NCBI GenBank assembly: GCA_030248295.1
Contig: JASANH010000148.1
Coordinates: 35,723-99,722, forward strand
From: Mesodorylaimus sp. YZB2_4
Lineage: Eukaryota; Nematoda; Enoplea; Dorylaimida; Dorylaimidae
Length of the DNA stretch: 64,000 bases
Reading direction: 5' to 3'
Part shown: positions 31,937-60,736 of the stretch, in pieces
Position numbering within the stretch: position 1 is the stretch's first letter
Layout of the letters: each line of letters begins with the position of its first letter
Notes under the pieces: model-generated
Databases searched by the model: none
What the model saw: the letters and a program-made list of their open reading frames with translations, nothing else
What the model was told of the DNA's origin: nothing
Made by a program: the position numbers and the translations under genes

Positions 31937-33136
31937 TCATTTCTTCTTTCCAGCATACCTTTTCACCAAGGCATCGGTAGGCGTCAAGGACAATTCGGGC
32001 GGTTGCGACACGCTCCAGGCACCGGACGGCGGTCCCTTGGCGCTGGCTTGCTTCACCATCTTCTTTTGGGCATTCTGTTCCCTCACCAGGCGGATGTCGT
32101 AGATCACGACGGCGATGGCGATTGGGATGGCGATGACACAGCCGATGCTCAGGCCGATCAGAGTGCGCTGCAGGTTGACGATGTACGGGTCGTCGTTCCA
32201 GTACAGCCCATCGTCTGGTTCTTCTTCGTCTTCCACATCATCAGACAATTCGCAGCTGTCGATGCAAGGCACTGGCACGGTCGAACCGTTTTTCATGCAG
32301 TAAATGTCGATTCCTTCATCGGGTTGGCGCTCTATAATTGTCCCACGCTTGACAACTGCGGTTTGATAGTACTCGTCAGCAACGCAGTTCTTCGGCCCCA
32401 TTTTCGTGCATGGTCCTTGCCACTTCTTAAAAGGGCAGCTGGAGAGACTTTTTTTCATCCAGTACCGCACGTGGTGTACAAGCTCGCTTAAATTTGTCGA
32501 ATGGCAAGCTTTTTTCCAGCCATACTGGACTCTGCCGTCTTCGCCACGATCTAGTTTGAGCATGGGCGCACCTGACCCCATGAACCCATTGTTGGCTGGA
32601 ATACTGAAGTTCGGGAAGAAGAACGCGTGGGCCTTGGTTTCGACGATTTGTGCGATCCTTTCGTTATCGACGCTGCACTGATTCACAGGTTCCGTGAAGA
32701 CATAGACCAGCTTGGGCACGTGGACTCGGTCGTTCTTCCCAAACGCCATCTCGCGGGTCCTCATTCCGACATCAGCCGCAGTGAATGTGAAAGGCGGTGT
32801 GTACGTGCCTTTGCCGATCTTTTCAGCCGCTTCGATCACCTTGTCAACGCTGTCCCCGTTCTCGATCGATAGGAGAAGGTTCTCATTGGATCCGAATTCG
32901 GCGATGGCCAACCTTGTTTCATTCGGGGCCAGATGAAACTTTTGCGCCATATCTTCGATCACTTCCTTCAGGAATTTGACGTTTTCTTCGTTGACCGGGT
33001 TCGTGACGGAGCTGTTGAAGTGGATGCCGATGGCCAGGTCGAACACGCGCGTGTTGATTTTCCATTCGGACTGCGGCTGGCCAATGATCGTCAAGAAGGC
33101 AGCCAAGCACACGAACAACCACAACGATGATTGCAT
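31937..33136 (-). CDS. vWA-like type I membrane protein, family gene A, copy 1
   Basis: Intronless, 399 residues. Signal peptide (MQSSLWLFVCLAAFLTIIGQ); vWA-like domain (about 25-235) with first strand FDLAIGIHFNSS, helix NEENVKFLKEVIEDMAQKF, strand RLAIAEFGS and strand PKLVYVFT. Then a Cys module (SCPFKKWQGPC, NC, YC, PCIDSC), an acidic linker (DDVEDEEEPDDG), one transmembrane helix (about 326-348, LIGLSIGCVIAIPIAIAVVI) and a 50-residue cytoplasmic tail (RLVREQNAQKK ... WSVSQPPELSLTPTDALVKR). The MIDAS Asp-x-Ser-x-Ser is absent, so metal-dependent ligand binding is doubtful. Several Asn-x-Ser/Thr sites. I infer a cell-surface recognition role; the ligand is unknown. The middle ectodomain differs greatly from A2 (44365-45639). 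Confidence 0.88.
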   Translation of the reverse strand: MQSSLWLFVCLAAFLTIIGQPQSEWKINTRVFDLAIGIHFNSSVTNPVNEENVKFLKEVIEDMAQKFHLAPNETRLAIAEFGSNENLLLSIENGDSVDKVIEAAEKIGKGTYTPPFTFTAADVGMRTREMAFGKNDRVHVPKLVYVFTEPVNQCSVDNERIAQIVETKAHAFFFPNFSIPANNGFMGSGAPMLKLDRGEDGRVQYGWKKACHSTNLSELVHHVRYWMKKSLSSCPFKKWQGPCTKMGPKNCVADEYYQTAVVKRGTIIERQPDEGIDIYCMKNGSTVPVPCIDSCELSDDVEDEEEPDDGLYWNDDPYIVNLQRTLIGLSIGCVIAIPIAIAVVIYDIRLVREQNAQKKMVKQASAKGPPSGAWSVSQPPELSLTPTDALVKRYAGKKK

Positions 33137-35991
33137 TTTCGATTTGTGAGACGACGAGGGTGATTTTCGAGAGAGATGTCAATGACACGACTGATTCGCA
33201 CGATTCCGCTCGCTGAAACTGACCATCACCCCGCGAGTTGATGAACTGTAAAGTTGTGCATGGCTGCTTTGGCGATGTGTAAACTTGCCAGATGAGCACT
33301 GCACTGTGTATATTTCAGGAGGGAAGTTTTTGATCCAGTAAGATTTTTGATGACGCTTATCGTTAAATCTTGATCCTCATACTTTGAACCTACAGCGGAT
33401 ATCGCGCACTCACGTGACGGCGAGTTTGGGCTGATCTTACCAGCGATCAGTCCAAGGTCTTCATTAGCCCATGGTAGAAAGGCTCATTCCTGCAGAGTAT
33501 CGATCACTAGGACCCCGATTCCCACACCCCCTCAGGCAAGGATAATATCTCCATACACAGACAATAGACCTTAGAAAGCACACAGCTGGCCAACTCTCCA
33601 AAAACTGTCAAGGCCTCGAATGTTTTGGCCCACTGTACATATTGTAGATCTAGCTTATCGTTAGTGCTCTTGGCTGACAGAGTGTAAATGACAAAGCTTC
33701 TCTGCTAAAACTGTTTTAGAGAGCCTTGAGAAAGCTTGTTTCTTGACCTCATGCCTTGTCAGGTACCCGATCACAATGTCACAAAATTAAGACCGCTGCA
33801 ACCCTCTCGCCTAGCGAGCCATCGCGAGTCGGAGGGAGACGTCAACGTCTCAGGCTGATGTTTCAGCCGCAAGACTTGCCTACTCCAGTCACCCACATTC
33901 TCTCCTTTGCCTGCCAGGCTTGGATGCACCGTTTTACGTACATTACCTTTGAACCCAGAAAAACCTGCTGTATGCACTGCGCATGGGAATATTGATCAGG
34001 ACAACGCTGTCCACCGCAGCCAGCATGACTTAAGCCAGTCTGATTGGAAACCAAAGCGTATCTCGTTCAAAGTCGCTTATCACATTTCTTAGGAACTTTG
34101 ACAGGTGGCAGAATTTCTAAAATTCGTATCAAAGACCCGAAAACTTTTGAACACGTTTGTTTATTGCGCGAGGTGCCCCACATTTTTAAAAAATATTGGC
34201 GAAGCTTTCCAGTTGTCAGAATTTCAGCCTAAATCAGGGGATTGTGAATTAAATAGGCCCCCTTATCCTGCTAATAGAAACTTTTTCTCAACACAATTTC
34301 TGAAATATCTGCTGTGCAATAATTGATGGGAGCATATTCTAGCACCCACATGCTCGAGACATAAAGTTGACTTGAAGCAGCCCGCAAAAGGTAATGGACA
34401 AGTATTGCAGTACTCTGCACAAAAAACGTGCATAATGTGCTGAGCCTGTGCGACACATTAGACAGGGCCTATCTCGACACCGCCTCACACTAGCACGGAA
34501 AGGATAAAACGATGCAGAATTTCATGCTCTTTCGAACAGCGCATCACGTTCTCTGCTAGGATGTGTTTCCACTCCTTCTTTCACTGAATTTCCATCCATA
34601 CAAATCCTGGTGCTCTGGAACTTCTGTGCTTAATGAATTGGAATGCGCATCAGGCGACCTCCATGCAATAGTGCCTTTTTTGATGAAAAACTTTGCACCT
34701 GGTGTCTGCCTTTCGATTTGATCGCGCAAGGTTTCGGTTGCGTTCATGTCTTTTGGTTGGTGTGGCCCAGAACTCATTCATCGTAATTTATAAATTTCAG
34801 CCCTTACTCGCCCTTTCATGTTTCCATCGTGGCACTGCCGCGCGCACTGGGACCACGGCAAGGTGCACTGTCTTCTCGAAGTCTATATTCAGCATTGGGA
34901 TCCAGTTATTTGATCAGGGCCAAAATGCCTCGTCATCGATATTCCCTTCAGCGAGAAGTAATGCAGCAATTGCATTGCGAATAAACTTTATCCCAAAAAA
35001 TGGCATCACCACAGAATTTTCTGGTGGTGAATGCACACGGGGTGGAATTCAACATTTTTGGTGCAGAAAGATTGCTTTGAACGATTCGACACCAAGCAAA
35101 ATTGAGAGATGCACAACCTGACAATCTGGCACCAATATCCGTCAGTTTTGAATGCTCTTTCGGCCACTGAAGTTGACATGCGCGATTTGCACGGATCACG
35201 AGGCTTCCGTGGATACTGGTAGCCGTAAATTTCACTTTCTGGTGGTCTGGGAAATCGGACTAACACCACGAATCAGGTTCGACCCAGTGGGGTCTTGCAT
35301 GAGTTCGGTGTCGAACACTTCCGTATTCGATCAGGTTGTATGATGGTCTTGCGTGTGCATTATATAGAGTGCACCAACAGTTGATATATGCAGTAACGGC
35401 TGAATTAAAGTCGATGTGATTCTTCCGAAGAGCCACTCACAAACGTGATTTTGAATACACTCTGCATCAATAGGCTTCTAAAAACGGAAGTCAGAAAAAA
35501 TTTGCACGAAGCAGATTAAGCGACAGAGAAAAAGCTGGGGTAATTGCCAGAAATTGCTGGCTAGTTGAAAAGCTAGTTGTATCTTGAGTGTTGTCTTTTC
35601 CATTACAGCTTTATTGAAGCGGTTGAGTGATAAGTTATGTGCATAAAAGACAGATGGAGTCATCGAATGCAGTTGCATACAGTAGAACATACGGGAAAGG
35701 CATTTGATGAATTTCGAGGAAACATGAGCTGAAAGCTGAAACAAATGAAACAAATATTCGGATTTTACGGCCAAATTTTTACCCCGATTCTGCGTGATCC
35801 GCTTACTATGCGGATATTTTGGCAGACAAGGAGAGCGTGTTTCATGTGTGCTGCATTCAGTTATCCTCATTGAAGTGGTTCTTTTCATGATTAGTAGCCT
35901 TCTGATACAAAAGAATCATCATCACAGAAAAAACACAGCATAGAGAACAGGCTGCAGGATCATTCGTTCATCACGATGGTCATGGCACAGC
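33137..35991. other. Spacer between genes A1 and B1
   Basis: Holds the A1 5' flank (a TATCGTTA variant of the shared upstream motif at about 33359), a MITE relic at about 33793-33930, and 2 kb of sequence repeated in copy 2 without a recognisable gene. Frames such as 34556-34777 (-), 34948-35235 (-) and 35478-35888 (-) recur in copy 2 because the DNA is duplicated. They show no known domain. Confidence 0.5.
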
Positions 35992-37280
35992 CTACTTGGA
36001 GGCGTACTTCCTGACCAAGTCATCGACTGGCGTCAGCGACAGTTCAGGCGGGGCCGAAACACTCCATTCGGCTGTTGACGACCCCAGGGCAGTCGAAGCC
36101 ATCATCTTCTTCTGGGCATTCTGTTCCCTCACCAGGCGGATGTCGTAGAGCACGACGGCGACGGCGATCGGGATGGCGATGACACAGCCGATGCTCAGGC
36201 CGATCAGAGTGCGCTGCAGCTTGACGATGTACGGGTCGTCGTTCCAGTACAGGCCATCGTCCGGGTCTTCTTCGTCTTCCTTGTCATCGTCGCCAGGAGC
36301 ACTCGAAGTGGGCGTGCCGATGGGGCTGGTGCTAGGCGTGACACTATCCGAGGTGTGAGTAGGGGTGCTGGGATTTTGGCAGCTGTCCGTACAAGGCATG
36401 GGCACAATCGAACCATTTTTCATGCAGTATAAGTGGATTCGATCGTCGGGTGGGCGCTCTTGAACCGTCCAATTCTGGAAAGTTGCAGTTTCGTAGTACT
36501 CGGCAGCTGAGCAGTTGTTTGGCCCCATTTTCGTGCACGGTCCCTGCCAGTTCTTGAAAACACAGCTGGATAGACTGCCTTCTACCCATGTTCGCACTTC
36601 GGTTGTGACATCGTACAGGCGTGCATCCCTTTGGCAAATGCCATTCCATGTATACATGACACCGCCGTCTTGTTTACGAGTCAAACTCAGCGCACCCACC
36701 ACAAGCGCTTGGAACGAATCGCATCAGGCATGGCAAAGGTAGGAAATAAGACGGCATGGGCGTCGGTCTCGATAATTTCTTGGACACTTCGGTTTCGTTC
36801 TGTTTCATTCATTTCGCACACTTTCCTAGCAACTGCCGTGAAGACATAGACCAGCTTGGGGACATGGACTCGGTCGTTCTTCCCAAATGCCACCTCGCGG
36901 GTCCTCATTCCGACAGCGGCAGAAGTGAATGCGAAGGGCGGCGTGTAAGTGCCTTTGCCGATCTTTCCAGCCGCTTCGATCACCTTATCAGTACTGTCTC
37001 CGTTATCGAACGACAACACGAGCTCCGCGGCGGATCCGAATTCGACAATGGCTATCCTTGTTTGATTGTTTGCCAGAGTGAGCTTCTTCGCCAGATCTTT
37101 GATCACGTCCGTCACGAGTTCGACGCTCTCTTTGTTGACCACGTTTGTGACATTGCTGTCGTAATGAATTCCGATAGCTGGGTCGAACTCGCGCGCGTTC
37201 GACTTCCATTCGGATTTTTGCTTACCGGTGGTCATCGAGAAGATGGTCAAGCATACGAACAACCACCACGACGATTTCAT
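35992..37280 (-). pseudogene. vWA-like family gene B, copy 1, frameshifted
   Basis: Start ATG at 37280 (MKSSWWLFVCLTIFSMTTG). The vWA-like domain is open to about 36725, where a 1-bp deletion relative to genes C and E (coding around ATMPD/GDRFQALV) shifts the frame and gives a stop at 36687. The downstream frame (36702-35992) carries the remaining family parts intact: SCVFKNWQGPC, a Thr/Pro-rich linker, the membrane helix, and the tail WSVSAPPELSLTPVDDLVRK. The same break is in copy 2, so it predates the duplication. A tiny intron is not supported: no suitable GT/AG pair is seen. It could be a pseudogene or, less likely, make a secreted truncated protein. Confidence 0.8.
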
Positions 37281-37566
37281 GCGATATCTGAGATGATGAT
37301 GAGTGAAATTTGGAGAGATATCTGCGACACGACTGATTTCTACGATTCTGTTCGCTGGAATGCTGACCACCGCCAGGCGTGCTGATGTAAAGTTGTGCAC
37401 GGCTTCTTTAGCTTACAAGGGAACATGGCCAAACCTAGTCAAGCTTTGCAATTTTCGGTTTTGGCTGGCCATGCTCCTTTGTGAGTGTAAAGATGACAGC
37501 GCGCGCACATTGGAAGTGGAATTTTCCAATTCCTCGTTGGAATCTCGCATGATTTTGAGTGTCTCT

Positions 37567-37574
37567 TATCGATA
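37567..37574 (-). promoter_or_regulatory. TATCGATA motif upstream of gene B1
   Basis: Palindromic TATCGATA within the conserved TATCGATAAGAGACACT block, 287 bp upstream of the start. The same block precedes B2 (50352-50359), D2 (56652-56659) and E (59085-59092). A DRE-like role is inference. Confidence 0.4.
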
Positions 37575-37794
37575 ATCTTGATCCTTGAGCTCTGATTTCT
37601 GAACGGATAATTACACTTCTACAGCATATGTAACTCATTTCGGTATGTGAACACTCCGCCCCACCCAGAGACGCGGATGCGGTCAATGACATTTGACTGT
37701 CCACTCTCACATCTCTTTGACTGTCCGTCTGTCAGGGACCATCCATAAAAGACGCGCAGACTACCCAGGAGCGTGTGTGGGGTAGGCTCACAGT

Positions 37795-37885
37795 GGACAT
37801 CCACTTATTTGAAAATTGTGCGGCACTTCAAATCCGACTGCAATCAGGAATCGACTTTATTGCCGATTCCTGATTGCATTCCTGA
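37795..37885 (+). mobile_element. Short LINE reverse-transcriptase fragment
   Basis: Encodes VDIHLFENCAALQIRLQSGI, matching the start of the LINE relic at 56876. It then breaks in a small inverted/direct repeat of CAGGAATCG and CGATTCCTG. Repeated in copy 2 at about 50580-50670. Confidence 0.6.
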
Positions 37886-38499
37886 TTGATGTAGCGTAAA
37901 GTTGTGAATGGCTGCTTTCGCGTAATGTAAACTTTAATTAAGCACTGCGCTGTGCGCGTTAGATAAGTGATTTTCGATTCTGCGCCAGGATGTCATAAGA
38001 TTTGAGATGTCTCTTATCCTTTATCCTTAAGCTCTGACTTCTAGGCAGATACATATATATTTCTATAGCATGTGTGACGCTCTAGTACGTGAACACGACA
38101 TTCGCGCCCAAGCGATTCTGCGGCGGAGTGGATATTGCCATTGCTGGTTGACGGTCCATACTCAGGGTCAGCCTCGCCATCAAGCAAGAAGAGGAATTTC
38201 CTTTCTCGTCCTAGTTTTTCTCGATTAGCTTAGTAGAGCCTTGATCAGAACTCCATGAGCTCTTTTCACATCGCTGTCCGACGTGACTGCGTGTAGAGAA
38301 GAGCAATCTCGAGACCAACTCACCAGACGAGAATTATGTTACCTTCTCTCTTCTACTCTACTCGTCGCCTGCTCTGGCCATAGCCCTGGCGAGCCAAGCT
38401 TTGACTACATTGCATGATATATATACGCGGGAGATCCAAACTCTACTGTGACACTCCCAGCACTCAATGAGCTTGTATCACTTTGTCGAGGCCCATTAC

Positions 38500-38770
38500 T
38501 GTATACAGTTGCCCAATTCTAAACACGACCAGCAATTCTCAGCTTGTTACGCCTTCTCAAATCTGGATGGGAATTGGGCATCAGCTGAAATGAGTCGACT
38601 GCGACTTGGGCTAGCCCACAAATGACCAACTAACCCAGAACGCTCGACAAAATGAGCACTGCGAGTCGAAACCATCTCGCCCGATTACGCTTCCTTCACA
38701 AACTGAATCTTACGCACACTCCCCACCTCCACACGACGCGAGCACATCCAGGTGGCTACGCCGTGGCTGT
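38500..38770 (-). pseudogene. Decayed copy of TSP1-like gene exons 1-2
   Basis: Matches 30231-30430 along its length (shared CCAGCAATTCTCAGCTTG-like, GGGCATCAGCT and AATGACCAACT blocks), but the frame is broken and the exon 1 donor has become GTTAGT. It is present only in copy 1, because the equivalent part of copy 2 is replaced by the block at 50826-51218. Confidence 0.7.
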
Positions 38771-38798
38771 ACTCTAGTCACCGAAATAGTGACGCACA

Positions 38799-39010
38799 TC
38801 ATACAACTCTGGGGGGTATGGAGACGCTCCATCCAGAAGACATGGAAACATTGTTCTCTGGCTTCCCAATAACGCTTTTCCCAGATGACGCTTCATAGGC
38901 TTCTCTGGCGCGGATGAAAGCACGAGGACGATAGGAATGGCGCAGCCGATGCTCACAGTTAGACATCAGAGTGCGCTTCAGGTTGATGATGTATAAAGTC
39001 TGTCGTCTTT
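38799..39010 (-). pseudogene. Fossil of a class I family tail downstream of gene C1
   Basis: Reads YIINLKRTL, then a scrambled membrane helix, then GKSVIGKPENNVSMSSGWSV followed by SIPP. DNA alignment to the functional tail of genes A, B and E is clear around CTGAAGCGCACTCTGAT. The gene C frame ends upstream in a different hydrophobic end. Confidence 0.7.
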
Positions 39011-39158
39011 GTCGTAGACGCGCTGGAATTATGTAGCTGTAGACGACGTCGGCAAAGCTGTAGCTGCGGGAATTGGTAGTCGTCAAGGTGGAGTTTGTGT
39101 AGGGCTTAGAACAGATACCTTTTCTTCACACAAGCACGCCTTAACTCAATAAACAATC

Positions 39159-40341
39159 CTACCATATAAACCAGCAGATTATCCTGCCTGTCTCAGTGCA
39201 GAAGAAAACTAGATGGAAAAAAGGGCAGCTAAACCCCAAGACTACTTGGAAAAAACCACGCAAATACAAGTAACTGAAATAGCAGAACATAATAATCGCC
39301 AATAAATCTTCGCGATTGTCTTTCCCGTTCTTCTCGTTGCCATTTTCGTCTTCGGAAGCACTCAAAGTGCGCGTGCCATTGCGGTTTGGGGTAGGCGTGA
39401 CACTATTCGTGGTGTGAGTAGGGGTGCTGGGACTTTGGCAGTTGTCGGTACAAGGCATGGGCACAATCGAACCATTTTTCATGCAGTATAAGTGGATTCG
39501 ATCGTCGGGCGGGCGCTCTTGAATCGCGTGATTCTGGAACGTTGCAGTTCGATAGTACTCGTCAGCAACGCAGTTGTTTCGTCCCATTTTCGTGCACGGT
39601 CCTTGCAACTTCTGGAAAACACAACTGGAGAGACTGCCTTCTATCCGTGTGCGCACTTCGGTTGTGACATCGTACAGGCGTGCATCCCTTTGGCAATTGC
39701 CATTCCATGCGTATGTGACACCGCCGTCTTGTTTACGAGTCAAATTGAGCGCACCCATCACAAGCGCTTGGAATCTATCGCCGGATGGCCAAGCAAAACT
39801 AGGCAAGAAGATGGCGTGTGCGTCCGTTACGATGATTTCTTGGACTCTTTCGTCTCGTTCGGCTTCACTGATTTCGCACACTTTCTCAGCAAATGTCGTG
39901 AAGACATAGACCAGCTTGGGCACGTGGACTCGGTCGTTCTTCCCAAACGCCATCTCGCGGGTCCTCATTCCGACATAAGCCGCAGTGAATGTGAAAGGCG
40001 GTATGTACGTCCCATTGCCGATCCTATTAGCCGCTCTGCTCACGTTTTTAAGGCTGACTCCGTTCTCGATCGACAGCAGGAGGTTCTCATTGGATCCGAA
40101 TTCAACGATGGCCATCCTTGTTGCATTTGGAGTTGGAGAGAACATCACCGCCAGCGTTTTGATCATTTCAGCTACGAGATTGACGTTTTTTTTCATTGAC
40201 CGGGTTGGTGACAGTGCTGTTGTAGTGGATGCCGATGGCCAAGTCGAACACGCTCGTGTTGTTTTCCCATTCGGACTGCGGCTGACCATTGATCGTCGAG
40301 AAGGCAGCCAAGCAAATAAAAAACCACAATGATGATCTCAT
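39159..40341 (-). pseudogene. vWA-like family gene C, copy 1, frameshift in an A8 run
   Basis: Start ATG at 40341 (MRSSLWFFICLAAFSTINGQ). After VNPVNEKK a run of eight A (minus strand; 40186-40193) puts the rest out of frame. A -1 shift at A-AAA-AAA restores NVNLVAEMIKTLAVMF and the whole domain. The second frame runs to 39159: PKLVYVFT, SCVFQKLQGPC, YC, PCTDNC, a Ser/Thr/Pro linker, then an alternative hydrophobic C terminus (LLAIIMFCYFSYLYLRGFF) instead of the class I helix and tail. Copy 2 has the same run. It could be a pseudogene or a case of programmed frameshifting or slippage. Confidence 0.7.
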
Positions 40342-41102
40342 TTTCGATTCGAGACGGCGGGGGTGAATTTGATGAGCGATGTCTGACATGACCGATTCGC
40401 ACGATTCTTTTCGATGAAAGGCTGACAGCCACCACGCGCAGTGATGCACTGTAAAGTTGTACATGGCTGCTTTGGCGTCGTGTAAACTTGCCAAATTGAG
40501 CACTGCGCTGTTCACGTTGGAAGTTTGAAAGTGTGTTTTCAAATTTCGGCGCCTAAATTTAGTAAGATTTGTATCATCTCTTTTTGATAACCTTGATTCT
40601 TAGGGACAGATTTCTGAACAGATAACTATATTTCTAGAGCATATGTGACTCATTTTAGTATGTGAAAACTCGATCACACCCAAAGGGGTGGATGCGGTCA
40701 ACCACATTTGACTGTCCACACTCATATTCGTCAGGGGCCATCCATGATGGATATGCAGGCTACCCGGGTGGGTGGAAAAGGGGGGCAAGACAACAGTTGA
40801 GGTTGACACCCAGTGGAGAGCCCGTTGACACGAAGGAGAAAAGGGAGATTGACAACCAGTGGAACCCGCCTATTGAAATTTGTTGGAGGTGTATTCGAAC
40901 CTGTACCATTTCAAGTCCCCAATGTGTACTCTGCACAGACTAAAAATGTGACTGTCGACGTTAGACGTGACTGACTGGCTGATTAAGGCATAAAAGCCTT
41001 ATTATCTGCGGGCAGTGTGGAGGTACTGACTAATCTGGACTGGTTCTTGATTTGAATTGATATTAACCTGTTGTCTAGTGCCATGCCCATGAGTGGCATT
41101 CG

Positions 41103-41931
41103 GTGGCCCTATCGCGATCAGTCGAGAGTCAGCCGCTAGTTGATGGCTGTCTCTGTTTCTCATTCCATCTGTATATTTCTGCAGCCAAAGACAACCTGTC
41201 CATACTGTCCATACAAATAGATTTTGTATCGAACTGTGTTACGGAGACAGGCCTTGATTTCAATGCGGACAAAATGCAGGCCTGTATATTCCGTTTGAAT
41301 AAGCTCGCAGCTGAATTTCCTGTACTACTCTTGAATGGTAAGCCAATACAATTTACGGACACTGTCAAGTATTTAGGAGTTCATTTCTCGCTAGATTACG
41401 GGTCTGTTGCTTGGTCTCCAATACAAAACAAGCTATCGGATGATCTCGGAAGGGCGCAAAAATTTGCTGCACGGGCAGTTCTCAACAATTGGACAATATC
41501 CTACGAATCGGCGCTGGAGACACTGAAGTGGACTTCATTATCTGACCGAAGAAATCACCACAAATTATTGCAATTTTATCGGTATTACCATGGACAGGCG
41601 GCTTACCCAAATCGGCATTTTGTTCATGCGGACATGTGTGGTCGTCGCGTGAGTGCTCGCACCTCACAACCACATCAATTGGAAATAACAAAATGTCGAT
41701 CAAAAACCTTTACTCAAAGTTTTGAATTTTCTTCAATGACTTTATGGAACACTGTGATACCAAGCACCATCGCTTTTAGTTGTTTTACCGAGTTCAAAGA
41801 TTTTGTGACAAAGATTCGTTTTTGACATGCTTTTATTTTAACTTTATCTTGTCCTTGTTTTATGTGCTGTGCCTCATCAGTGGACTGGTAAGTCTTTTGG
41901 CATAGTAAACTTTAGCATAGCATAGCATAGG
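41103..41931 (+). mobile_element. 3' end of a non-LTR retrotransposon (LINE), decayed
   Basis: Frame 41103-41825 encodes the late reverse-transcriptase region and C terminus: GLDFNADKMQACIFRLNK, VKYLGVHFS, LGRAQKFAARAVLNNW, then LKWTSLSDRRNHHKLLQFYR and SSMTLWNTVIPSTI. It ends in tandem AGCATAGCATAG units (41913-41931), a typical LINE tail. A segment after VKYLGVHFS is replaced relative to copy 2. The element is dead and 5'-truncated. Confidence 0.8.
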
Positions 41932-41944
41932 GCGCAGCACCAAA

Positions 41945-42457: not shown

Positions 42458-42484
42458 GAGCTCCTCTGGTATTTTTCCCCTTCC

Positions 42485-42565
42485 TCAGGCGGATGTCGTC
42501 GATCAGAGTGCGCTCCAGGTTAACGATGTATGAATCCTCATTCCAGTACAGACAGTCGTCATTCT
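42485..42565 (-). pseudogene. Fossil of the class I membrane-tail segment near gene D1
   Basis: Encodes CLYWNEDSYIVNLERTLIDD joined directly to IRLRKG. This is the family's DGLYWNDDPYIVNLQRTL segment with the transmembrane helix deleted. Counterpart in copy 2: about 54646-54725. Confidence 0.65.
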
Positions 42566-50065: not shown

Positions 50066-50825
50066 GCGATATCTGAGATGATGATGAGTGAAATTTGGAG
50101 AGATATCTGCGACACGACTGATTTCTACGATTCTGTTCGCTGGAATGCTGACCACCGCCAGGCGTGCTAATGTAAAGTTGTGCACGGCTTCTTTAGCTTA
50201 CAAGGGAACATGGCCAAACCTAGTCAAACTTTGCAATTTTCGGTTTTGGTTGGCCATGTTCCTTTGTGAGTGTAAAGATGACAGCGCGCGCACATTGGAA
50301 GTGGAATTTTCCAATTCCTCGTTGGAATCTCGCATGATTTTGAGTGTCTCTTATCGATAATCTTGATCCTTGAGCTCTGATTTCTGAACGGATAATTACA
50401 CTTCTAAAGCATATGTAACTCATTTCGGTATGTGAACACTCCGCCCCACCCAGAGACGCGGATGCGGTCAATGACATTTGACTGTCCACTCTCACATCTC
50501 TTTGACTGTCCGTCTGTCAGGGACCATCCATAAAAGACGCGCAGACTACCCAGGAGCGTGTGTGGGGTAGGCTCACAGTGGACATCCACTTATTTGAAAA
50601 TTGTGCGGCACTTCAAATCCGACTGCAATCAGGAATCGACTTTATTGCCGATTCCTGATTGCATTCCTGATTGATGTAGCGTAAAGTTGTGAATGGCTGC
50701 TTTCGCGTAATGTAAACTTTAATTAAGCACTGCGCTGTGCGCGTTAGATGAGTGATTTTCGATTCTGCGCCAGGATGTCATAAGATTTGAGATGTCTCTT
50801 ATCCTTTATCCTTAAGCTCTGACTC

Positions 50826-51218
50826 TCACAGATACATATATATCTATAGCATGTACGCTCTAGACGAACACACACCCCCAACATCTCCAATACACACCCA
50901 ACAACCCCACAAAAAAAATTCCACTACAACTCCCCACAAAAAAACACCACCAACAAACCTCCACCCCCAACCCAAATACAATATAAAACAACAAACACAC
51001 CACCCAAATCCCATACACAAAAAACACAAACACCACAAAAAAAAACCACAAAACCAACAACCCAAACCCAAAAAAACAAACCCCACCCCACAACAAACTA
51101 CCACACCCCCCCCCCACACCACACACCAAAAACACAAACCAAAAAAACCCAAACCAAACACCAAACAAAAAACCCCACAAAACAAAAAAAAAAACAAACA
51201 AAAACAATCTTCACACAA
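50826..51218 (+). other. G-free, T-poor block replacing 1 kb of copy 1 (probable sequence artefact)
   Basis: No G from 50867 to 51218 (352 bases) and very few T. Flanks align with copy 1 at 38045 and 39126. Reading copy 1 from CTCTAGTACGTGAACACG and deleting most G and T gives the copy 2 string, including the positions of the few T that remain (the TCT and ATA groups). The block contains no credible gene; its open frames are by-products of composition. Confidence 0.85.
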
Positions 51219-51243
51219 GCACGCCTTAACTCAATAAACAATC

Positions 51244-52426
51244 CTACCATATAAACCAGCAGATTATCCTGCCTGTCTCAGTGCAGAAGAAAACTAGATG
51301 GAAAAAAGGGCAGCTAAACCCCAAGACTACTTGGAAAAAACCACGCAAATACAAGTAACTGAAATAGCAGAACATAATAATCGCCAATAAATCTTCGCGA
51401 TTGTCTTTCCCGTTCTTCTCGTTGCCATTTTCGTCTTCGGAAGCACTCAAAGTGCGCGTGCCATGGCGGTTTGGGGTAGGCGTGACACTATTCGTGGTGT
51501 GAGTAGGGGTGCTGGGACTTTGGCAGTTGTCGGTACAAGGCATGGGCACAATCGAACCATTTTTCATGCAGTATAAGTGGATTCGATCGTCGGGTGGGCG
51601 CTCTTGAATCGCGTGATTCTGGAACGTTGCAGTTCGATAGTACTCGTCAGCAACGCAGTTGTTTGGTCCCATTTCCGTGCACGGTCCTTGCAACTTCTGG
51701 AAAACACAACTGGAGAGACTGCCTTCTATCCGTGTGCGCACTTCGGTTGTGACATCGTACAGGCGTGCATCCCTTTGGCAATTGCCATTCCATGCGTATG
51801 TGACACCGCCGTCTTGTTTACGAGTCAAATTGAGCGCACCCACCACAAGCGCTTGGAATCTATCGCCGGATGGCCAAGCAAAACTAGGCAAGAAGATGGC
51901 GTGTGCGTCCGTTACGATGATTTCTTGGACTCTTTCGTCTCGTTCGGCTTCACTGATTTCGCACACTTTCTCAGCAAATGTCGTGAAGACATAGACCAGC
52001 TTGGGCACGTGGACTCGGTCGTTCTTCCCAAACGCCATCTCGCGGGTCCTCATTCCGACATAAGCCGCAGTGAATGTGAAAGGCGGTATGTACGTCCCGT
52101 TGCCGATCCTATTAGCCGCTCTGCTCACGTTTTTAAGGCTGACTCCGTTCTCGATCGACAGCAGGAGGTTCTCATTGGATCCGAATTCAACGATGGCCAT
52201 CCTTGTTGCATTTGGAGTTGGAGAGAACATCACCGCCAGCGTTTTGATCATTTCAGCTACGAGATTGACGTTTTTTTTCATTGACCGGGTTGGTGACAGT
52301 GCTGTTGTAGTGGATGCCGATGGCCAAGTCGAACACGCTCGTGTTGTTTTCCCATTCGGACTGCGGCTGACCATTGATCGTCGAGAAGGCAGCCAAGCAA
52401 ATAAAAAACCACAATGATGATCTCAT
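51244..52426 (-). pseudogene. vWA-like family gene C, copy 2, frameshift in an A8 run
   Basis: Start at 52426. Almost identical to C1, with the same eight-A run at 52271-52278 and the same alternative hydrophobic C terminus. The few differences (for example MGPNNC where C1 has MGRNNC) do not restore the frame. Confidence 0.7.
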
Positions 52427-53190
52427 TTTCGATTCGAGACGGCGGGGGTGAATTTGATGAGCGATGTCTGACATGACCGATTCGCACGATTCTTTTCGAT
52501 GAAAGGCTGACAGCCACCACGCGCAGTGATGCACTGTAAAGTTGTACACGGCTGCTTTGGCGTCGTGTAAACTTGCCAAATTGAGCACTGCGCTGTTCAC
52601 GTTGGAAGTTTGGAAGTGTGTTTTCAAATTTCGGCGCCTAAATTTAGTAAGATTTGTATCATCTCTTATTGATAATCTTGATTCTTAGGGACAGATTTCT
52701 GAACAGATAACTATATTTCTAGAGCATATGTGACTCATTTTAGTATGTGAAAACTCCATCACACCCAAAGGGGTGGATGCGGTCAACCACATTTGACTGT
52801 CCACACTCATATTCGTCAGGGGCCATCCATGATGGATATGCAGGCTACCCGGGTGGGTGGGAAAGGGGGGGGCAAGACAACAGTTGAGGTTGACACCCAG
52901 TGGAGAGCCCGTTGACACGAAGGAGAAAAGGGAGATTGACAACCAGTGGACACCCGCCTATTGAAATTTGTTGGAGGTGTATTCGAACCTGTACCATTTC
53001 AAGTCCCCAATGTGTACTCTGCACAGACTAAAAATGTGACTGTCGACGTTAGACGTGACTGACTGGCTGATTAAGGCATAAAAGCCTTATTATCTGCGGG
53101 CAGTGTGGAGGTACTAACTAATCTGGACTGGTTCTTGATTTGAATTGATATTAACCTGTTGTCTAGTGCCATGCCCATGAGTGGCATTCG

Positions 53191-54092
53191 GTGGCCCTAT
53201 CGCGATCAGTCGAGAGTCAGCCGCTAGTTGATGGCTGTCTCTGTTTCTCATTCCATCTGTATATTTCTGCAGCCAAAGACAACCTGTCCATACTGTCCAT
53301 ACAAATAGATTTTGTATCGAACTGTGTTACGGAGACAGGCCTTGATTTCAATGCGGACAAAATGCAGGCCTGTATATTCCGTTTGAATAAGCTCGCAGCT
53401 GAATTTCCTGTACTACTCTTGAATGGTAAGCCAATACAATTTACGGACACTGTCAAGTATTTAGGAGTTCATTTCTCGCCGGATTTGCACTTCAGTCGTC
53501 ACTGCCATGAAATTGCCTCTTCTTCCAGACAAATGATTGGAGCTTTTCGAAGAAAATTTGGGAATGAAAACAATGAACTCCAATGAAAACAAGCTATCGG
53601 ATGATCTTGGAAGGGCGCCAAAATTTGCTGCACGGGCAGTTCTCAACAATTGGACAATATCCTACGAATCGGCGCTGGAGACACTGAAGTGGACTTCATT
53701 ATCTGACCGAAGAAATCACCACAAATTATTGGAATTTTATCGGCATTACCATGGACAGGCGGCTTACCCAAATCAGCATTTTGTTCATGCGGACATGTGT
53801 GGTCGTCGCGTGAGTGCTCGCACCTCACAACCACATCAATTGGAAATAACCAAATGTCGATCAAAAACCTTTACTCAAAGTTTTGAATTTTCTTCAATGA
53901 CTTTATGGAACACTGTGATACCAAGCACCATCGCTTTTAGTTGTTTTACCGAGTTCAAAGATTTTGTGACAAAGATTCGTTTTTGACATGCTTTTATTTT
54001 AACTTTATCTTGTCCTTGTTTTATGTGCTGTGCCTCATCAGTGGACTGGTAAGTCTTTTGGCATAGTAAACTTTAGCATAGCATAGCATAGG
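53191..54092 (+). mobile_element. LINE 3' end, copy 2
   Basis: Counterpart of 41103-41931, but it keeps the original sequence after VKYLGVHFS (PDLHFSRHCHEIASSSRQMI). The frame breaks at 53586 and continues at 53537-53986. Same CATAG-unit tail. Confidence 0.8.
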
Positions 54093-54105
54093 GCGCAGCA
54101 CCAAA

Positions 54106-54618
54106 AAATATAAGTCTAAAAGTCACTGTCGATTAAAATAAAGATTGGAAACGAATCGTTTAAAAGTGTCATGCGTACTATTTGCTATATCATACGGCAA
54201 ATCATCCCACAGATTTATGGCTGACACTTCGAAAGCCTGCGAGTATGTTGCAGTTCTCCCAGCAGGTTTCAAGATGGTGAGGAGCCGTTATGCGTTCACT
54301 GAACCTACGACCAGACATGTCGGTATGGGTTAGTCGTTGATGTGATGGATTGGCAGTCAGCCCATGATAAATCCGGTAGAAATGCATTAGTTTCAGTTGA
54401 TTTCTACGATTTTTCAAACTAGGCAGCTTTAGGGCAGCCAACGTGGTGTCATTGTCAATATGCCGTTGGTTTTGCCAACAGAGGATGCATAATCGAGACG
54501 AGGGATAATGCATTGTGTATAGATGGTCTTCAGAACATTGGTAGCCAATTTTCCAAACTTGCGGCGAACTGCACCGATCATACGCTTGCAAGATGAGGAG
54601 AGCTGACGGCGGCTTCAT
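54106..54618 (-). mobile_element. Second LINE 3' end, copy 2
   Basis: Counterpart of 41945-42457, tail to tail with the preceding element. A family-tail fossil (CLYWNDDPYIVNLERTLIDD) follows at about 54646-54725. Confidence 0.7.
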
Positions 54619-55063
54619 GAGCTCCTCTGGTATTTTTCCCCTTCCTCAGGCGGATGTCGTCGATCAGAGTGCGCTCCAGGTTAACGATGTATGGATCGTC
54701 ATTCCAGTACAGACAGTCGTCTTTCTCATGGACGAAGTGGAATTAGTGGCACGACATGAGCAAAGTTGTAGCTGCGAAAATGATAGTCAACAACGTGGAG
54801 TGTGTGTATGGCACATAACAGGTTTCTTTTCCTTTTTAGCTTAAACAAAGGCGTTTTTATCAATACTTTTGCTGTGTGACTTTTTACTTGAGTGCGCATG
54901 ATATGTGTTTTAAGAAGTAAAACTAGAACTAGAACTCGAACTTCACACACGCACACCACAAAAGCAAGAAACAACCCTACCATACTGTATAAACCAGATT
55001 ATCCTGCCCTGTTTGAGTGCAGAGAAAAACTAGATACGAAAAAAGACAGCTAAACTTCCAGGA

Positions 55064-56161
55064 CTATTTGGAAAGCATACCATGCAAATACGAATAACTC
55101 AAAAAGCCCACCAGGATAACCACGATCAAATCTTCCGGACGGTCTTTCCCTTCCTTTTCATTCCCATCATCGTCGGCAGAAGCGCTCGAAGTGCGCGTAT
55201 TGTGGCGGCTGGGGGCGGGCGTGATACTATCTGTGGTTTGAGATGGGGTGCTAGGACTTTGGCAGCTGTCGGTGCAAGGCACTGACACAGTCGAACCGTT
55301 TTTCATGCAGTAAATGTCGATTTCGTTATCAGGTGGGCGCTCTTGAACCGTCCCATTCTTGATAACTGCAGTTTGATAGTGCTCAGCAGCGACGCAGCTG
55401 TCCGGTTCTATTTTCGTGCATGGCCCCTGCCACTCCTTGAAAGGGCAGGAGGAGAGAGTGCTGTTTATCCATGCGCCCAAATCGATGGTAAGAACGTTCA
55501 AAGATCCAGTCCCGAAGCAATTTCCATTCCATACGTAGCTGACGCCACCGTCTTCCTTGCGAGTCAAATTGAACGCCCCCACCACAAGCGCTTGGAATCT
55601 ATCACCGGCTGGCCAGGCAAAGGTAGGAAAAAAGACGGCATGGGCGTCAGTTTTGATGATTTCTTGGACTCTTCGCTCTCGTTCGGCTTCACTGACTTCG
55701 CACACTTTCTCAGCAAAAGTCGTGAAGACATAGACCAGCTTGGGGACATTGACTCGGTCGTTCTTCGCAAAAGCTATTTCACGGGTCCTTTTGCCGACAT
55801 CAGCAGCAGTGAATGGGAAAGGCGGTGTGTAAGTCCCGTTGCCGATCTTTTCCGCCGCTTTGGTCACGTTCCTATAGCTGCTTCCATTCTCGATCGACAA
55901 CAGCAGCGTCTCATGGGATCCGAATTCGACGATGGCCATCCTTGTTCTATTTTGAGCCGGATAGAACATCTCCGCCAGCACCAAGATCACTTCCTTCAAG
56001 AGATTGACACTTTTTTTGTTGACTACATTCATGACGGAACTGTTGTAGTGGATGCCGAAGGCCAGGTCGAATACGCGCGTGTTGTAGTTCCATTCGGATT
56101 TTGGTTGACCATTGATCGAGAAGACAGCCAAGCACACGAGCAAACACAGCGATGATTTCAT
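55064..56161 (-). CDS. vWA-like membrane protein, family gene D (class II C terminus)
   Basis: Intronless, 365 residues, open throughout. Signal peptide MKSSLCLLVCLAVFSINGQP; vWA-like domain with FDLAFGIHYNSS, KKSVNLLKEVILVLAEMFY, RMAIVEFGSHETLLLS, PKLVYVFTTFAEK; Cys module SCPFKEWQGPC, SC, YC, PCTDSC; Ser/Thr/Pro linker; acidic GNEKEGKDRPEDL. It ends in a short hydrophobic stretch LIVVILVGFLSYSYLHGMLS with no long cytoplasmic tail. That end could be a membrane anchor (tail too short for signalling) or a GPI-type signal. Its promoter-side region is interrupted by a MITE at 56448-56643, beside the shared TATCGATA motif. Confidence 0.85.
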   Translation of the reverse strand: MKSSLCLLVCLAVFSINGQPKSEWNYNTRVFDLAFGIHYNSSVMNVVNKKSVNLLKEVILVLAEMFYPAQNRTRMAIVEFGSHETLLLSIENGSSYRNVTKAAEKIGNGTYTPPFPFTAADVGKRTREIAFAKNDRVNVPKLVYVFTTFAEKVCEVSEAERERRVQEIIKTDAHAVFFPTFAWPAGDRFQALVVGAFNLTRKEDGGVSYVWNGNCFGTGSLNVLTIDLGAWINSTLSSCPFKEWQGPCTKIEPDSCVAAEHYQTAVIKNGTVQERPPDNEIDIYCMKNGSTVSVPCTDSCQSPSTPSQTTDSITPAPSRHNTRTSSASADDDGNEKEGKDRPEDLIVVILVGFLSYSYLHGMLSK

Positions 56162-56643: not shown

Positions 56644-56875
56644 GTGTCTCTTATCGATAATCTTGATCCTTGAGCTCTGATTTCTGAACGGATAATTACA
56701 CTTCTAAAGCATATGTAACTCATTTCGGTATGTGAACACTCCGCCCCACCCAGAGACGCGGATGCGGTCAATGACATTTGACTGTCCACTCTCACATCTT
56801 TTTTGGTCCATCTGTCAGGGACCATCCATAAAAGACGCGCAGACTACATAGGAGCGTGGGTGGGGTAGGCTCACA

Positions 56876-57417
56876 GTGGACATCCACTTATTTGAAAATT
56901 GTGCGGCACTTCAAATCCGATTGCAATCAGGAATCGACTTTCTTGCCAATAAAATCGCGGCCCTCGGCCTCTCTTTCAACAGCGAGAAAACTCGAGCTTG
57001 CGTCTTCCGACTCAATCACAAGGCAATAGATTTGCCGACTGTCAGCCTTCAGGAGGAGCCAATTAATTTTTCTGATTCGGCCAAATACCTCGGGGGTCCA
57101 ATTCTCATCAAACATGCGCTTCGCCCAGCATTGCCAGGAAATCGCTCGCTCAGCAAGGCGAATGATTGGCGCTTTTCGACAAAAATTTGGCAAATTGGCT
57201 TAAAAGGTTCTTCACAGCGTCTACATTCAATGTGCGAGGCCCCGGCTTGAACATGGATGCTGCACATGGTCCCCAACTGACAATCAACAAGGTTTGTGTG
57301 ACGAGCTGAAACGTGCTCAAAAGTTTGCCGCGAGATCGGTCAGAAACTATGAGCGTATTTTGACGTCCCGTTAGTGCATAGCAACGTGCTTGGGCGACTT
57401 AAAATGGCATAGCATAG
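56876..57417 (+). mobile_element. LINE 3' fragment in the inverted-repeat arm
   Basis: Late reverse-transcriptase region: IHLFENCAALQIRLQSGIDF, LGLSFNSEKTRACVFRLN, SAKYLGG. After frame breaks it continues as LCDELKRAQKFAARSVRNYE at about 57290-57360 and ends in CATAG units at about 57407. Mirror copy at 63328-63869 (-). Confidence 0.75.
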
Positions 57418-57439
57418 CATGGATGCTCAAATCAAGCCC

Positions 57440-57573
57440 AGAAGCTGGCGTTTGGGAAAAGCGGCATTGGGAAGCCAGCGAACAATGTTTCCGTGTCTTC
57501 TGGATGGAGCGTCTCCCTGGGCCCAGAGTTGTCCTTGACTCCAGCCGGCGTCTTGGTGGGACACTATGCCTTG
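57440..57573 (+). pseudogene. Fossil of a class I family cytoplasmic tail
   Basis: Frame reads FGKSGIGKPANNVSVSSGWS, then VSLGPELSLTPAGVLVGHYA, clearly the WSVSxPPELSLTPxDxLVxxYA tail of the family. It lacks any membrane helix or ectodomain. Mirror copy at 63172-63305 (-). Confidence 0.75.
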
Positions 57574-58217
57574 CCATTCCATGCGCAAGTGATGACAGTG
57601 AATGGCGATCTTGTCACGCGGGGAGTCTGTGCGCTATGTCTCGAGTGCCCTGGCTAAATACAAACCTTTGCTGTCGTGTTTGATGTTCAGTGAAGCAAAG
57701 ACCAGTCGAGACTGGGCCGATCGATGATTCCATAATGTGTGACCATTATTCATAGCATAGGAGCGTGCCTGACTGTGAGTGCCAGACCTTGCGAAACTAA
57801 ATGTTGATAGCATAAATTGTGATCGCCGTGAAAGTTGCTGACGCGTGGAAGGATTCATTCTCGACGTCTTGCCAAGAGTACTCTGAGGACCCCTATCTTG
57901 GATTATATACATATTTACTAACAAACTACGCATGCCGTCTCATTTACCAAACTATAAATTATCGATTACCTCAAAAATAGTGACCAGCAATCAAAAATCT
58001 TTTATTTGCCGCCACTACAGTTTCCCCATTTTTGTAGTGCCTGCATTTTGCATTTTGCGGCTCAACATTGGACTCGTGAGCGAATTAAGTACATCGGGGG
58101 CACCAAAAACCACTGCTATGATCCTAATTGCACAGTTGAGACTGAAAAAAGACTTGGTAAACAGCCCCAAAAAGGGGAGTGTTATAATATTATTTGCAGT
58201 TCACCACGAAATGCTCT

Positions 58218-58315
58218 CAGCGGCCGCGGTGGTGCAGCGCTTCGGCATTCGTCTCTGCATATTGCGTGGGAGCGAGTTGTTAGACTCATCCCGGGTTCGA
58301 TTCCAGGTGATGGAG
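58218..58315 (+). repeat. tRNA-derived SINE-like repeat
   Basis: A-box-like GGTGGTGCAGCGC, then a perfect B box GGTTCGATTCC, followed by a body (CATAAACCCTCGCTGAC, GGCCGTGGGTGACTCACCC) that also occurs near 31556-31615 in diverged form. Mirror copy at 62430-62527 (-). Confidence 0.5.
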
Positions 58316-59295
58316 GTCGGCTTGCGAACCATAAACCCTCGCTGACCTTGCACGCTGGCCGTGGGTGACTCACCCAGTACCCTAAAGGTGCTCCGAGTGG
58401 AGAGACGGAAGCCAAACGAGCAGACAGTCCTGGCTGTCAAACACCAACAGGGTTCAAAGGCCGCCGCCGTCATCCGAGGAAGTCGATGTCCAGTCCAGGA
58501 TGCCCTCGCTTGGAAGTGCCCCTAGTGGAGATGCGCAGAGGGACGCTGCCGTGAGAGCTGGTCACCTCACGGTCTCGCTTATCATATTATGACCTGGCCG
58601 GCTATAGGCAAAAAGGTGTTGGAAGTACCGTGGGGAACTGGAGCGACCGGGGCCCAACCAAAAAAACGAGATGCTCTCACGATCAGAGGAGGTCAGGTAC
58701 TGACTGATTCAGTCCTGCATCCGCCAGAATCCAGTGCGGATCTTCTGAAAAACTACTCAAGTTTTCGAAATTAGCGATGAATCGCATTAAAGAGGCTAGT
58801 TAATAGGTGATAGTTGGTGGGCCATGCTCAGCCGACGACACGGTTTGGACGATTGCGGTGCCCATTTCGTTGGGCCAATTCGCGCCCATGTTTGACAAGG
58901 CCCAACATAATCGAAACGGGAATAATGGGGCTCAGTGGTGAGGCGACTGGGAGGTCAATTACTGGAACTGACCATATCCACCCCGCCTGAGAAACGCTTG
59001 CGTGGTGTTCACATACCAAAATGACTTACATATGCTTTAGAAATATGATTATCTGGTCAGAAATCAGAGCCCAAAGATCAAAATTATCGATAAGAGACAC
59101 TACAAATCATGCGAGATTCCAACAAGGAATTTGAAAATTCCACTTACAGTTGCTCAATTTGACAAGTTTACACTACGCCACAACTTTACATCAGCATGCG
59201 GGACGGTGGTCGGCATTTCAGCGAGCAGAATCGTAGGAATCAGTCGTTTCAGAACCTCTTCAAATTCATCCCCGTCGTCATCTCACCACTCGAAA

Positions 59296-60582
59296 ATGAA
59301 ATCATCGTTATGGTTGCTCGTGTGCTTGACTGTCTTCTCGATCAATGGTCAGCCAAAATCCGAATGGAACTACAACACGCGCGTGTTCGACCTGGCTATC
59401 GGCATCCACTACAACAGTTCTGTCACCAACTCTGTAAATGAAGAAAACGTCGAACTCGTGACGAAAGTGATTAGAGGGCTAGCGCGGAGGTTTGATCTAG
59501 CCCAAAATAAAGCAAGGATGGCCATCGCCGAGTTCGGATCCAGCGAGACGCTTCTGTTGTCGATCGAACATGGAATCAGCGCTGACAAGGTGATCGAAGC
59601 GGCTGAAAAGATCGGTAAAAGGAGCTACTCACCGCCTTTCCCATTCACTGCCGCCGATGTCGGCAAGAGGACCCGCGAGATGGCGTTTGGGAAGAGCGAC
59701 CGAGTCAATGTTCCCAAGCTGGTCTATGTCTTCACGACATTTTCTGAGAAAGTGGACGAAATCAGTGAAACCGAACGAGAGCGAAGAGTCCAAGAAATCA
59801 TCAAAACTGACGCCCATGCCGTCTTCTTTCATAGCTTTACCATGCCAAATGGAGGTACACTACAAGCGCTTCTGGTAGGCGCGCTCAATGTGACTCGTGA
59901 ACAAGATGGTGGTGTCTGGTACGGGTGGAATGGCGGTTTCTATGAGGCTATTACTGTGCACGATCTTCCAACCGAAATGCGAAAATGGATCGAGGGCAGT
60001 CTATCCAGCTGTGTTTTCAAGAACTGGCAGGGACCGTGCACGAAAATGGGACCGAACAACTGCTCAGCTGCCGAGTACTACGAAACTGCAACTTTCCAGA
60101 ATTGGACGGTTCAAGAGCGCCCACCCGACGATCGAATCCACTTATACTGCATGAAAAATGGTTCGATTGTGCCCATGCCTTGTACGGACAGCTGCCAAAA
60201 TCCCAGCACCCCTACTCACACCTCGGATAGTGTCACGCCTAGCACCAGCCCCATCGGCACGCCCACTTCGAGTGCTCCTGGCGACGATGACAAGGAAGAC
60301 GAAGAAGACCCGGACGATGGCCTGTACTGGAACGACGACCCGTACATCGTCAAGCTGCAGCGCACTCTGATCGGCCTGAGCATCGGCTGTGTCATCGCCA
60401 TCCCGATCGCTGTCGCCGTCGTGCTCTACGACATCCGCCTGGTGAGGGAACAGAATGCCCAGAAGAAGATGATGGCTTCGACTGCCCTGGGGTCGTCAAC
60501 AGCCGAATGGAGTGTTTCGGCCCCGCCTGAACTGTCGCTGACGCCAGTCGATGACTTGGTCAAGAAGTACGCCTCCAAGTAG
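59296..60582 (+). CDS. vWA-like type I membrane protein, family gene E (inverted, mosaic)
   Basis: Intronless, 428 residues, fully open; start at MKSSLWLLVCLTVFSINGQP. The vWA-like domain (FDLAIGIHYNSS, NEENVELVTKVIRGLARRF, RMAIAEFGSSETLLLS, PKLVYVFTTFSEK) resembles D and A. From SLSSCVFKNWQGPC onward it is almost identical to B1, including the linker APGDDDKEDEEDPDDG and the post-helix MMASTALGSSTAEWS, which B2 lacks. Tail WSVSAPPELSLTPVDDLVKK. It has the full family architecture and is intact where B is frameshifted. The 5' flank (from about 59003) and 3' flank (to about 60736) are also family DNA, inverted relative to A-D. It lies in the spacer of the inverted repeat. Confidence 0.88.
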   Translation: MKSSLWLLVCLTVFSINGQPKSEWNYNTRVFDLAIGIHYNSSVTNSVNEENVELVTKVIRGLARRFDLAQNKARMAIAEFGSSETLLLSIEHGISADKVIEAAEKIGKRSYSPPFPFTAADVGKRTREMAFGKSDRVNVPKLVYVFTTFSEKVDEISETERERRVQEIIKTDAHAVFFHSFTMPNGGTLQALLVGALNVTREQDGGVWYGWNGGFYEAITVHDLPTEMRKWIEGSLSSCVFKNWQGPCTKMGPNNCSAAEYYETATFQNWTVQERPPDDRIHLYCMKNGSIVPMPCTDSCQNPSTPTHTSDSVTPSTSPIGTPTSSAPGDDDKEDEEDPDDGLYWNDDPYIVKLQRTLIGLSIGCVIAIPIAVAVVLYDIRLVREQNAQKKMMASTALGSSTAEWSVSAPPELSLTPVDDLVKKYASK

Positions 60583-60736
60583 GGTGTGCCATGACCATCG
60601 TGATGAACGAATGATCCTGCAGCCTGTTCTTTATGCTGTGTTTTTTCTGTGATGATGATTCTTTTGTATCAGAAGGCTACTAATCATGAAAAGAACCACT
60701 TCAATGAGGATAACTGAATGCAGCACACATGAAACA

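Follow-up and report, generated by a model that had tools for sequence, protein, structure and literature searches.

A 64,000-nucleotide stretch of the genome of the nematode Mesodorylaimus sp. YZB2_4 (contig JASANH010000148.1, here C312, positions 35723–99722; hereafter the window) contains a cluster of genes for type I membrane proteins with a von Willebrand factor A (vWA) domain. The copies diverge chiefly in the second half of this domain, which lies between constant flanks. From the sequences, we interpret the family as nematode single-pass cell-surface adhesion or recognition receptors with a diversified half-domain, a reading to which we assign a probability of roughly 0.52.

Copies of the family in the window and in the genome

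Nine family copies lie within 31937–60582 (28.6 kb); four are open, four frameshifted and one truncated. The open copies are A1 (31937–33136, minus strand), which runs from ATG to stop over 399 amino acids (aa) and comprises a signal segment, a vWA domain, a six-Cys module, an acidic stalk, a transmembrane (TM) helix and a tail with PPELSLTP; A2 (44365–45639, minus strand, 424 aa, long tail); D2 (55064–56161, minus strand, 365 aa), which stops two residues past its C-terminal hydrophobic segment; and E (59296–60582, plus strand, 428 aa, long tail), oriented opposite to the other copies. On the minus strand, B1 (35992–37280, long-tail type) and B2 (48789–50065) have a frameshift in common. The same holds for C1 (39159–40341) and C2 (51244–52426, both minus strand), which lack the PPELSLTP tail; their frameshift sits in a run of A, where it may stem from an error in sequencing or assembly. 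D1 (42903–43178, minus strand) is a C-terminal remnant at a duplication boundary.

The stretches 30739–43180 and 43140–55340 align with 95.1% identity across 11,694 gap-free columns and form a segmental tandem duplication of ~12 kb. Unit 1 (30739–43137) carries A1-B1-C1-D1 and breaks off within D1, whose 5′ portion, present in D2, is missing; unit 2 (43140–55298) carries A2-B2-C2 together with the 3′ portion of D2. E lies outside this tandem pair. Window copies match each other at 74.7–99.6% DNA identity in pieces of 200–2,500 bases, and their mutual similarity is not a chance effect. A first-pass annotation, made from the letters alone, had counted eight or more members or remnants in 29 kb and had described tandem expansion, mosaics and decayed members; all of this was borne out, the tandem pattern being the A-B-C-D segment present twice, plus E. 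The non-coding spacer between B and C (38115–39120 and 50850–51240) differs between the units (36–64% identity in blocks) and is of low complexity in unit 2. E is flanked by an inverted repeat (56745–58803 and 61942–64000; 2,059 bases, 99.6–100% identity) whose second arm reaches the contig end, and which is either a genuine palindromic duplication or a fold-back produced in assembly.

A search of the genome assembly (145 Mb, 1,067 contigs) with E as DNA query gave 38 matching pieces on C312, C147, C36, C331, C643 and C62, the last being a tail piece. Five further long open frames were found outside the window (C147a, C147b, C36a, C36b and a D copy on C331), giving nine copies on four contigs with open frames and the same domain order. 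A D copy on C643 contains a stop, and the remaining pieces (on C147, C36, C331, C643 and C62) are either broken or incomplete. The contig ends of C331 (locus L048) and C643 (L049) are 99.7% identical over 5.7 kb, with the differences in their E-like copy falling in the last quarter (95% identity in two blocks, 99–100% elsewhere); the pair may represent haplotypes, recent duplicates or a conversion tract.

Divergence in the second half of the vWA domain

Nonsynonymous (dN) and synonymous (dS) divergence was determined for the eight open members A1, A2, D2, E, C147a, C147b, C36a and C36b (28 pairs), the near-copy of D2 on C331 being excluded. Median dN and dS were 0.13 and 0.30 for the signal segment plus N-terminal half of the vWA domain (N-half), 0.77 and 0.95 for its C-terminal half (C-half), 0.24 and 0.58 for the Cys module, 0.28 and 0.63 for the stalk (two pairs saturated), and 0.08 and 0.30 for the TM helix plus tail (21 pairs, without D2). 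Among the six pairs for which individual values were printed, D2 and E differed most mildly in the C-half (dN 0.27, dS 0.39). Ratios of mean dN to mean dS were calculated with bootstrap intervals for the seven long-tail members (21 pairs). The C-half gave 0.80 (0.58–1.03) at a mean dN of 0.80; the other ratios were 0.39 (0.27–0.56) for the N-half, 0.36 (0.21–0.57) for the Cys module and 0.27 (0.15–0.44) for TM plus tail. Sliding-window mean amino acid identity among the same seven members was 0.70–0.82 in the N-half, 0.26–0.31 in the variable segment and 0.93–0.96 in the TM helix.

The hypervariable segments, with approximate borders, occupy 32441–32695 in A1 (minus strand, second half of the vWA domain), 44953–45198 in A2 (minus strand) and 59737–60000 in E (plus strand). 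Identical residues between A1 and A2 amounted, from N to C terminus, to 132/148, 17/73, 46/62, 7/12 and 91/92, corresponding to 89% before the segment, 23% within it, 74% in the Cys module and 99% in TM plus tail. Along the tandem alignment, the gene A segment is the sole stretch inside family genes that drops to 52–58%. C36a and C36b, separated by 257 kb on one contig, showed dN 1.0 and dS 1.2 in the C-half and 0.02 and 0.01 in TM plus tail; for C147a and C147b (118 kb between them), the values were 0.64 and 0.53 in the C-half and 0.03 and 0.13 in TM plus tail.

Whole-genome DNA searches with wider stretches of A2 (44663–45196, 534 bases) and A1 (459 bases) returned matches of at most 82% identity, apart from 35–72-base pieces at 83–94% (A2: 72 bases at 85%, 72 at 83%, 48 at 94% and 35 at 91%; A1: 64 at 89% and 57 at 84%). 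Past query base 302 in A2 (~44965–45196) or 242 in A1, these searches found the query itself only; the variable part is therefore without a DNA-level relative found in the genome, and a copying of the segment from another gene of the assembly is unsupported.

Sequence transfer and shared upstream sequence

E and B1 are 69–90% identical per block before ~60063 and 96–100% thereafter; the 3′ module of E with its flank (60063–60740, plus strand) keeps this 96–100% identity to B1 in each 100-column block. Within 60290–60740, E sides with B1 over B2 at 16 sites, with B2 at 1 and with neither at 6. Thus, 3′ modules move among copies, inverted orientation included. About 130 bp 5′ of the ATG are similar across ten aligned copies from several loci (C147b least), which suggests common regulation of the copies. 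An element of ~90 bases lies 5′ of A1 (33409–33501) and has at least 23 further copies in the genome at 84–88% identity.

Evidence for a vWA domain and loss of the MIDAS motif

Seven window pieces were scanned with the Pfam VWA family (PF00092, cut-off 23.8 bits). Scores above the cut-off were obtained for A1 (25.8 bits), A2 (26.1), E (25.1) and the N-terminal piece of B1 (30.3), with E-values of 6e-7 to 2.4e-5. D2 (16.6), C1 (23.6) and, outside the window, C147a (20.4) and C36b (22.0) scored below it, and the C-terminal piece of B1 gave no VWA match. In a PDB profile search, a profile of twelve window rows matched the integrin alpha-1 I domain (E 3.7e-4), and A2 alone reached E 0.0034. An AlphaFold2 model of the D2 vWA domain, in which strands and helices alternate mainly within the first two thirds, retrieved 63 chains at E ≤ 0.001 with Foldseek, led by P. 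vivax TRAP, VWF A1, C2a and integrin I domains. The vWA identity is supported by the sequence matches, and the low-confidence model is consistent with it; the vWA-like domain proposed at first pass is accordingly supported by the Pfam and PDB profile matches and weakly by the D2 model with Foldseek.

The motifs DxSxS and TDG of the metal ion-dependent adhesion site (MIDAS) are absent from all eight aligned open members, so that the usual metal-aspartate binding mode is not expected. Both motifs are retained in 3 of 18 relatives encoded elsewhere in the genome (L052, L053 and L057; see below).

Signal segment, Cys module, stalk and tail

The six-Cys module, the acidic stalk and the C-terminal membrane helix are visible directly in the sequences, in line with the six-Cys module and single membrane helix described earlier. 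Other features held for part of the family. A crude hydropathy scan flagged an N-terminal signal segment in A1 only among the four open window genes, and a similar hydrophobic start was seen by eye in A2, D2 and E; the signal peptide that had been called shared stands on the scan for A1 and on inspection for the other three. Of the Ser/Thr/Pro plus acidic stalk that had been described, A1 keeps the acidic part only, without Ser/Thr/Pro. The tail WSVSxPPELSLTP, initially taken as common to all members, occurs in five of the nine copies (A1, A2, B1, B2 and E), whereas C1, C2, D1 and D2 have a different hydrophobic segment at the C-terminal end. About 340 bases 3′ of the D2 stop there is a stretch like the long form's LYWNDDPYIVNL part, from which we infer that an insertion probably deprived D2 of its tail. 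At E ≤ 1, no Pfam family matched the C-terminal B1 piece, which spans the Cys module, the TM helix and the tail. The initial statement that no named family has this architecture is therefore valid for the Cys module and the tail, but the architecture itself recurs in single-frame vWA proteins throughout the genome.

Single-frame vWA relatives in the same genome

PF00092 has at least 108 matches in the genome. Forty-five of them have open frames no shorter than 380 aa, including 4 of the window family. Sixteen of the remaining 41 loci were read; together with L068 and L069 they make 18 relatives. All sixteen encode, in a single frame, a vWA domain, a region judged by eye to be rich in Cys, a strong TM segment at the C-terminal side and a tail in which Lys/Arg outnumber Asp/Glu; in L062, L065 and L067, the sequence read stops short of the C-terminal end. 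The crude scan gave an N-terminal hydrophobic segment in 15 of the 16 (L058 lacks it) and one more weak segment in L067. Given the single open frame, the relatives are presumably intronless.

A hidden Markov model (HMM) of the window family matched L054 (E 1e-5) and L053 (9.6e-4). The tail HMM matched L054 (1e-5) and L056 (5.4e-5), with a best control of 0.22 and no signal in the other 14 relatives; in L068, the tail motif is recognisable by eye as WEIEKLPSLTGRTVDEL. The HMM of the vWA N-half was weak (best L067, 9.4e-4; first control, 0.83). L054 sits on C147 between two window-family members, and L060 carries a sub-threshold TSP1 (TSP_1, 20.2 vs 21.6 bits). An orphan family without relatives was rejected on the basis of the PF00092 and tail-HMM matches; the window family appears to have branched off, as a derived lineage, from a set of single-frame vWA type I membrane proteins spread over the genome, on contigs including C5, C140, C28, C11 and C184. 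Further tail motifs noted by eye in this set were MGVS (L052, L053 and L057) and PIDWGSS (L058 and L066).

Proposed function and alternative explanations

In the proposed receptor, the constant frame would consist of the N-half of the vWA domain together with the membrane helix and cytoplasmic tail, and the C-half after strand beta-4 would be the diversified part and the likely ligand-contacting surface. A glycosylatable Ser/Thr/Pro and acidic stalk would raise the head above the membrane, the W-S-V-x-x-P-P-E-L-S-L-T-P tail may dock a shared intracellular partner, and the tail-less copies (D type) could serve as decoys or anchored forms. Ligands would be bound without the usual metal-aspartate mode. 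Diversity would persist because the variable half remains divergent while the constant ends are made alike by local duplication and gene conversion. The resemblance to recognition receptors noted at first pass is strengthened by the hypervariable half-domain between constant flanks, the function itself being conjectural. If the proteins are recognition receptors, we judge gamete or mating recognition and immune or non-self recognition to be equally plausible uses, and recognition of a host surface about half as plausible as either. A more specific version appears unlikely to us, namely self/non-self or mate recognition by single-exon vWA receptors in which the half-domain would act as a hyperdivergent, rapidly exchanged cassette between gene-converted constant ends, within a genome-wide set of several dozen receptors.

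Several observations weigh against a receptor function of this kind. The variable half likewise exceeds the N-half and TM plus tail about threefold in dS, so that much of the contrast reflects older divergence spared from homogenisation and not faster protein change alone. The C-half ratio does not exceed 1, and its lower bound of 0.58 barely clears the 0.56 and 0.57 reached by the N-half and the Cys module. Segments with 26% identity align uncertainly, which may inflate both rates, and the region borders were set by us on E. Nine open copies among the loci read are few for a repertoire. Of the structures suggested for prediction at first pass, full-length E, modelled by AlphaFold2 with 12 window rows, reached a pLDDT of 36.6, and the D2 vWA domain, modelled with seven other window rows, came closest to vWA chains at low confidence (pLDDT 55.3, pTM 0.54); both models are poor, and the Foldseek TMq of 0.35–0.46 for the best 50 of the 63 chains is low. 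With the Cys-module HMM, a shuffled control (0.019) outscored the best relative (0.13), so that homology of this module to the relatives is not shown.

The rate data bear directly on a passive explanation, in which the second vWA half is weakly constrained and the products are ordinary adhesion or matrix-anchoring proteins whose variability has no recognition role. Conversion would keep the N-half and TM/tail alike but could not cross the far-drifted middle. This would fit a segment dN/dS of 0.80 rather than above 1, a dS that rises with dN, the transfer of the 3′ end between E and B1, and the broken state of five of the nine window copies. Such relaxation is harder to reconcile with the nine copies on four contigs that keep open frames with the same domain order, and with a divergence that affects the same segment in three separate pairs (A1/A2, C36a/C36b and C147a/C147b). 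We consider the passive explanation the main alternative, though somewhat unlikely.

Another explanation takes A1 and A2 as alleles, i.e., two haplotypes joined end to end by the assembler, with the segment as a hyperdivergent allelic stretch. The 95% identity of the units, the presence of another near-identical pair of contig ends in the assembly (C331/C643, 99.7%, 5.7 kb) and the lack of a source in the assembly for either variable segment agree with this view, but unit 1 ends in D1 without the 5′ part of D2, so the units are not simple equals; an allelic origin appears improbable to us. Least probable, and in our view very unlikely, are variant surface proteins that face a host or another organism and are not receptors with a signalling tail; although the constant TM/tail with a diversified ectodomain and the length-variable Pro/Ser/Thr repeat stalk would suit them, the open copies are few and the cytoplasmic motif is conserved.

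To our knowledge, nematodes have no established surface-receptor family with a diversified binding site of constant-variable-constant type. A literature search with narrow terms in openly licensed texts found no description of a nematode vWA family of such kind. Should the variable half of the proposed receptors bind variant ligands, the nine open copies at six sites and the dozens of relatives would be concrete candidates for nematode recognition molecules.

Genomic neighbourhood

Neighbouring exons in the window were found for an E1-E2 ATPase (2128–2910, minus strand; PMCA-like by eye) and, on the plus strand, a rhodopsin-type GPCR (5122–6078), a sub-threshold BRCT_2 domain (11167–11673), a DEAD-box helicase (24837–25316) and a sub-threshold SPB4-like C-terminal extension (27482–27910). 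The frames 41079–41825, 53167–53986, 56852–57250 and 63495–63893 resemble pieces of non-LTR reverse transcriptases; two of them were searched and matched no Pfam family at E ≤ 0.01. Elsewhere in the assembly, a COX1 copy on C73 reads TGA as W, AGG as S and AAA best as K, which fits the invertebrate code 5 (conserved positions judged by eye). Fifteen COX1 matches occur on C73 and 10 other contigs, many with stops that no mitochondrial code explains, which suggests frequent mitochondrial inserts in the nuclear genome.

Comparison with known systems

The window family resembles integrin alpha I and VWF A domains in the domain itself, as seen by Pfam, PDB profile matches and Foldseek, but differs from them in lacking the MIDAS DxSxS in 8/8 open members. 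Unlike integrins, the window proteins have no other integrin domain by Pfam and are type I proteins in one open frame.

Apicomplexan TRAP and MIC2 are similar in overall build, with a signal peptide, one vWA head, a Cys module, a stalk, one TM helix and a short Trp-containing tail; a tryptophan is a feature of the TRAP tail, and in the TRAP/MIC2 family the tail connects to the gliding motor. P. vivax TRAP was the top Foldseek match, and MIC2 was also listed. The window family differs in coming from a nematode, in having lost the MIDAS and in lacking a TSP1 match: no TSP_1 family was found at E ≤ 1 by Pfam in seven window pieces or in C147a and C36b. We therefore regard the likeness to TRAP/MIC2 as one of architecture only. 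By its gene content, the host is a nematode and not an apicomplexan, the genome having 133 matches to the cuticle-collagen N domain (PF01484) and 27 to TTR-52 (PF01060), several in tandem on C43; both families are typical of nematodes. The absence of PF01484 and PF01060 matches from 14 controls carries little weight, as the named controls are prokaryotes. SL1 RNA matched neither the genome nor the controls, a negative that is uninformative.

In C. elegans, F28B4.3, F40F4.6 and T25C12.3 encode EGF/MD/vWA/C-type lectin proteins that are described as up-regulated on pathogen exposure (PMC3534327). Like the window family, they represent vWA domains in nematode secreted proteins, but they exceed 2,000 aa and contain other domains, which sets them apart. 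Near-identical ends around a hypervariable middle were seen within the window family. The relatives from the same nematode mostly differ from it in a longer Cys-rich region and longer tails (by eye), and share with it the vWA domain, one TM segment and a basic, Ser-containing tail, all encoded in one frame.

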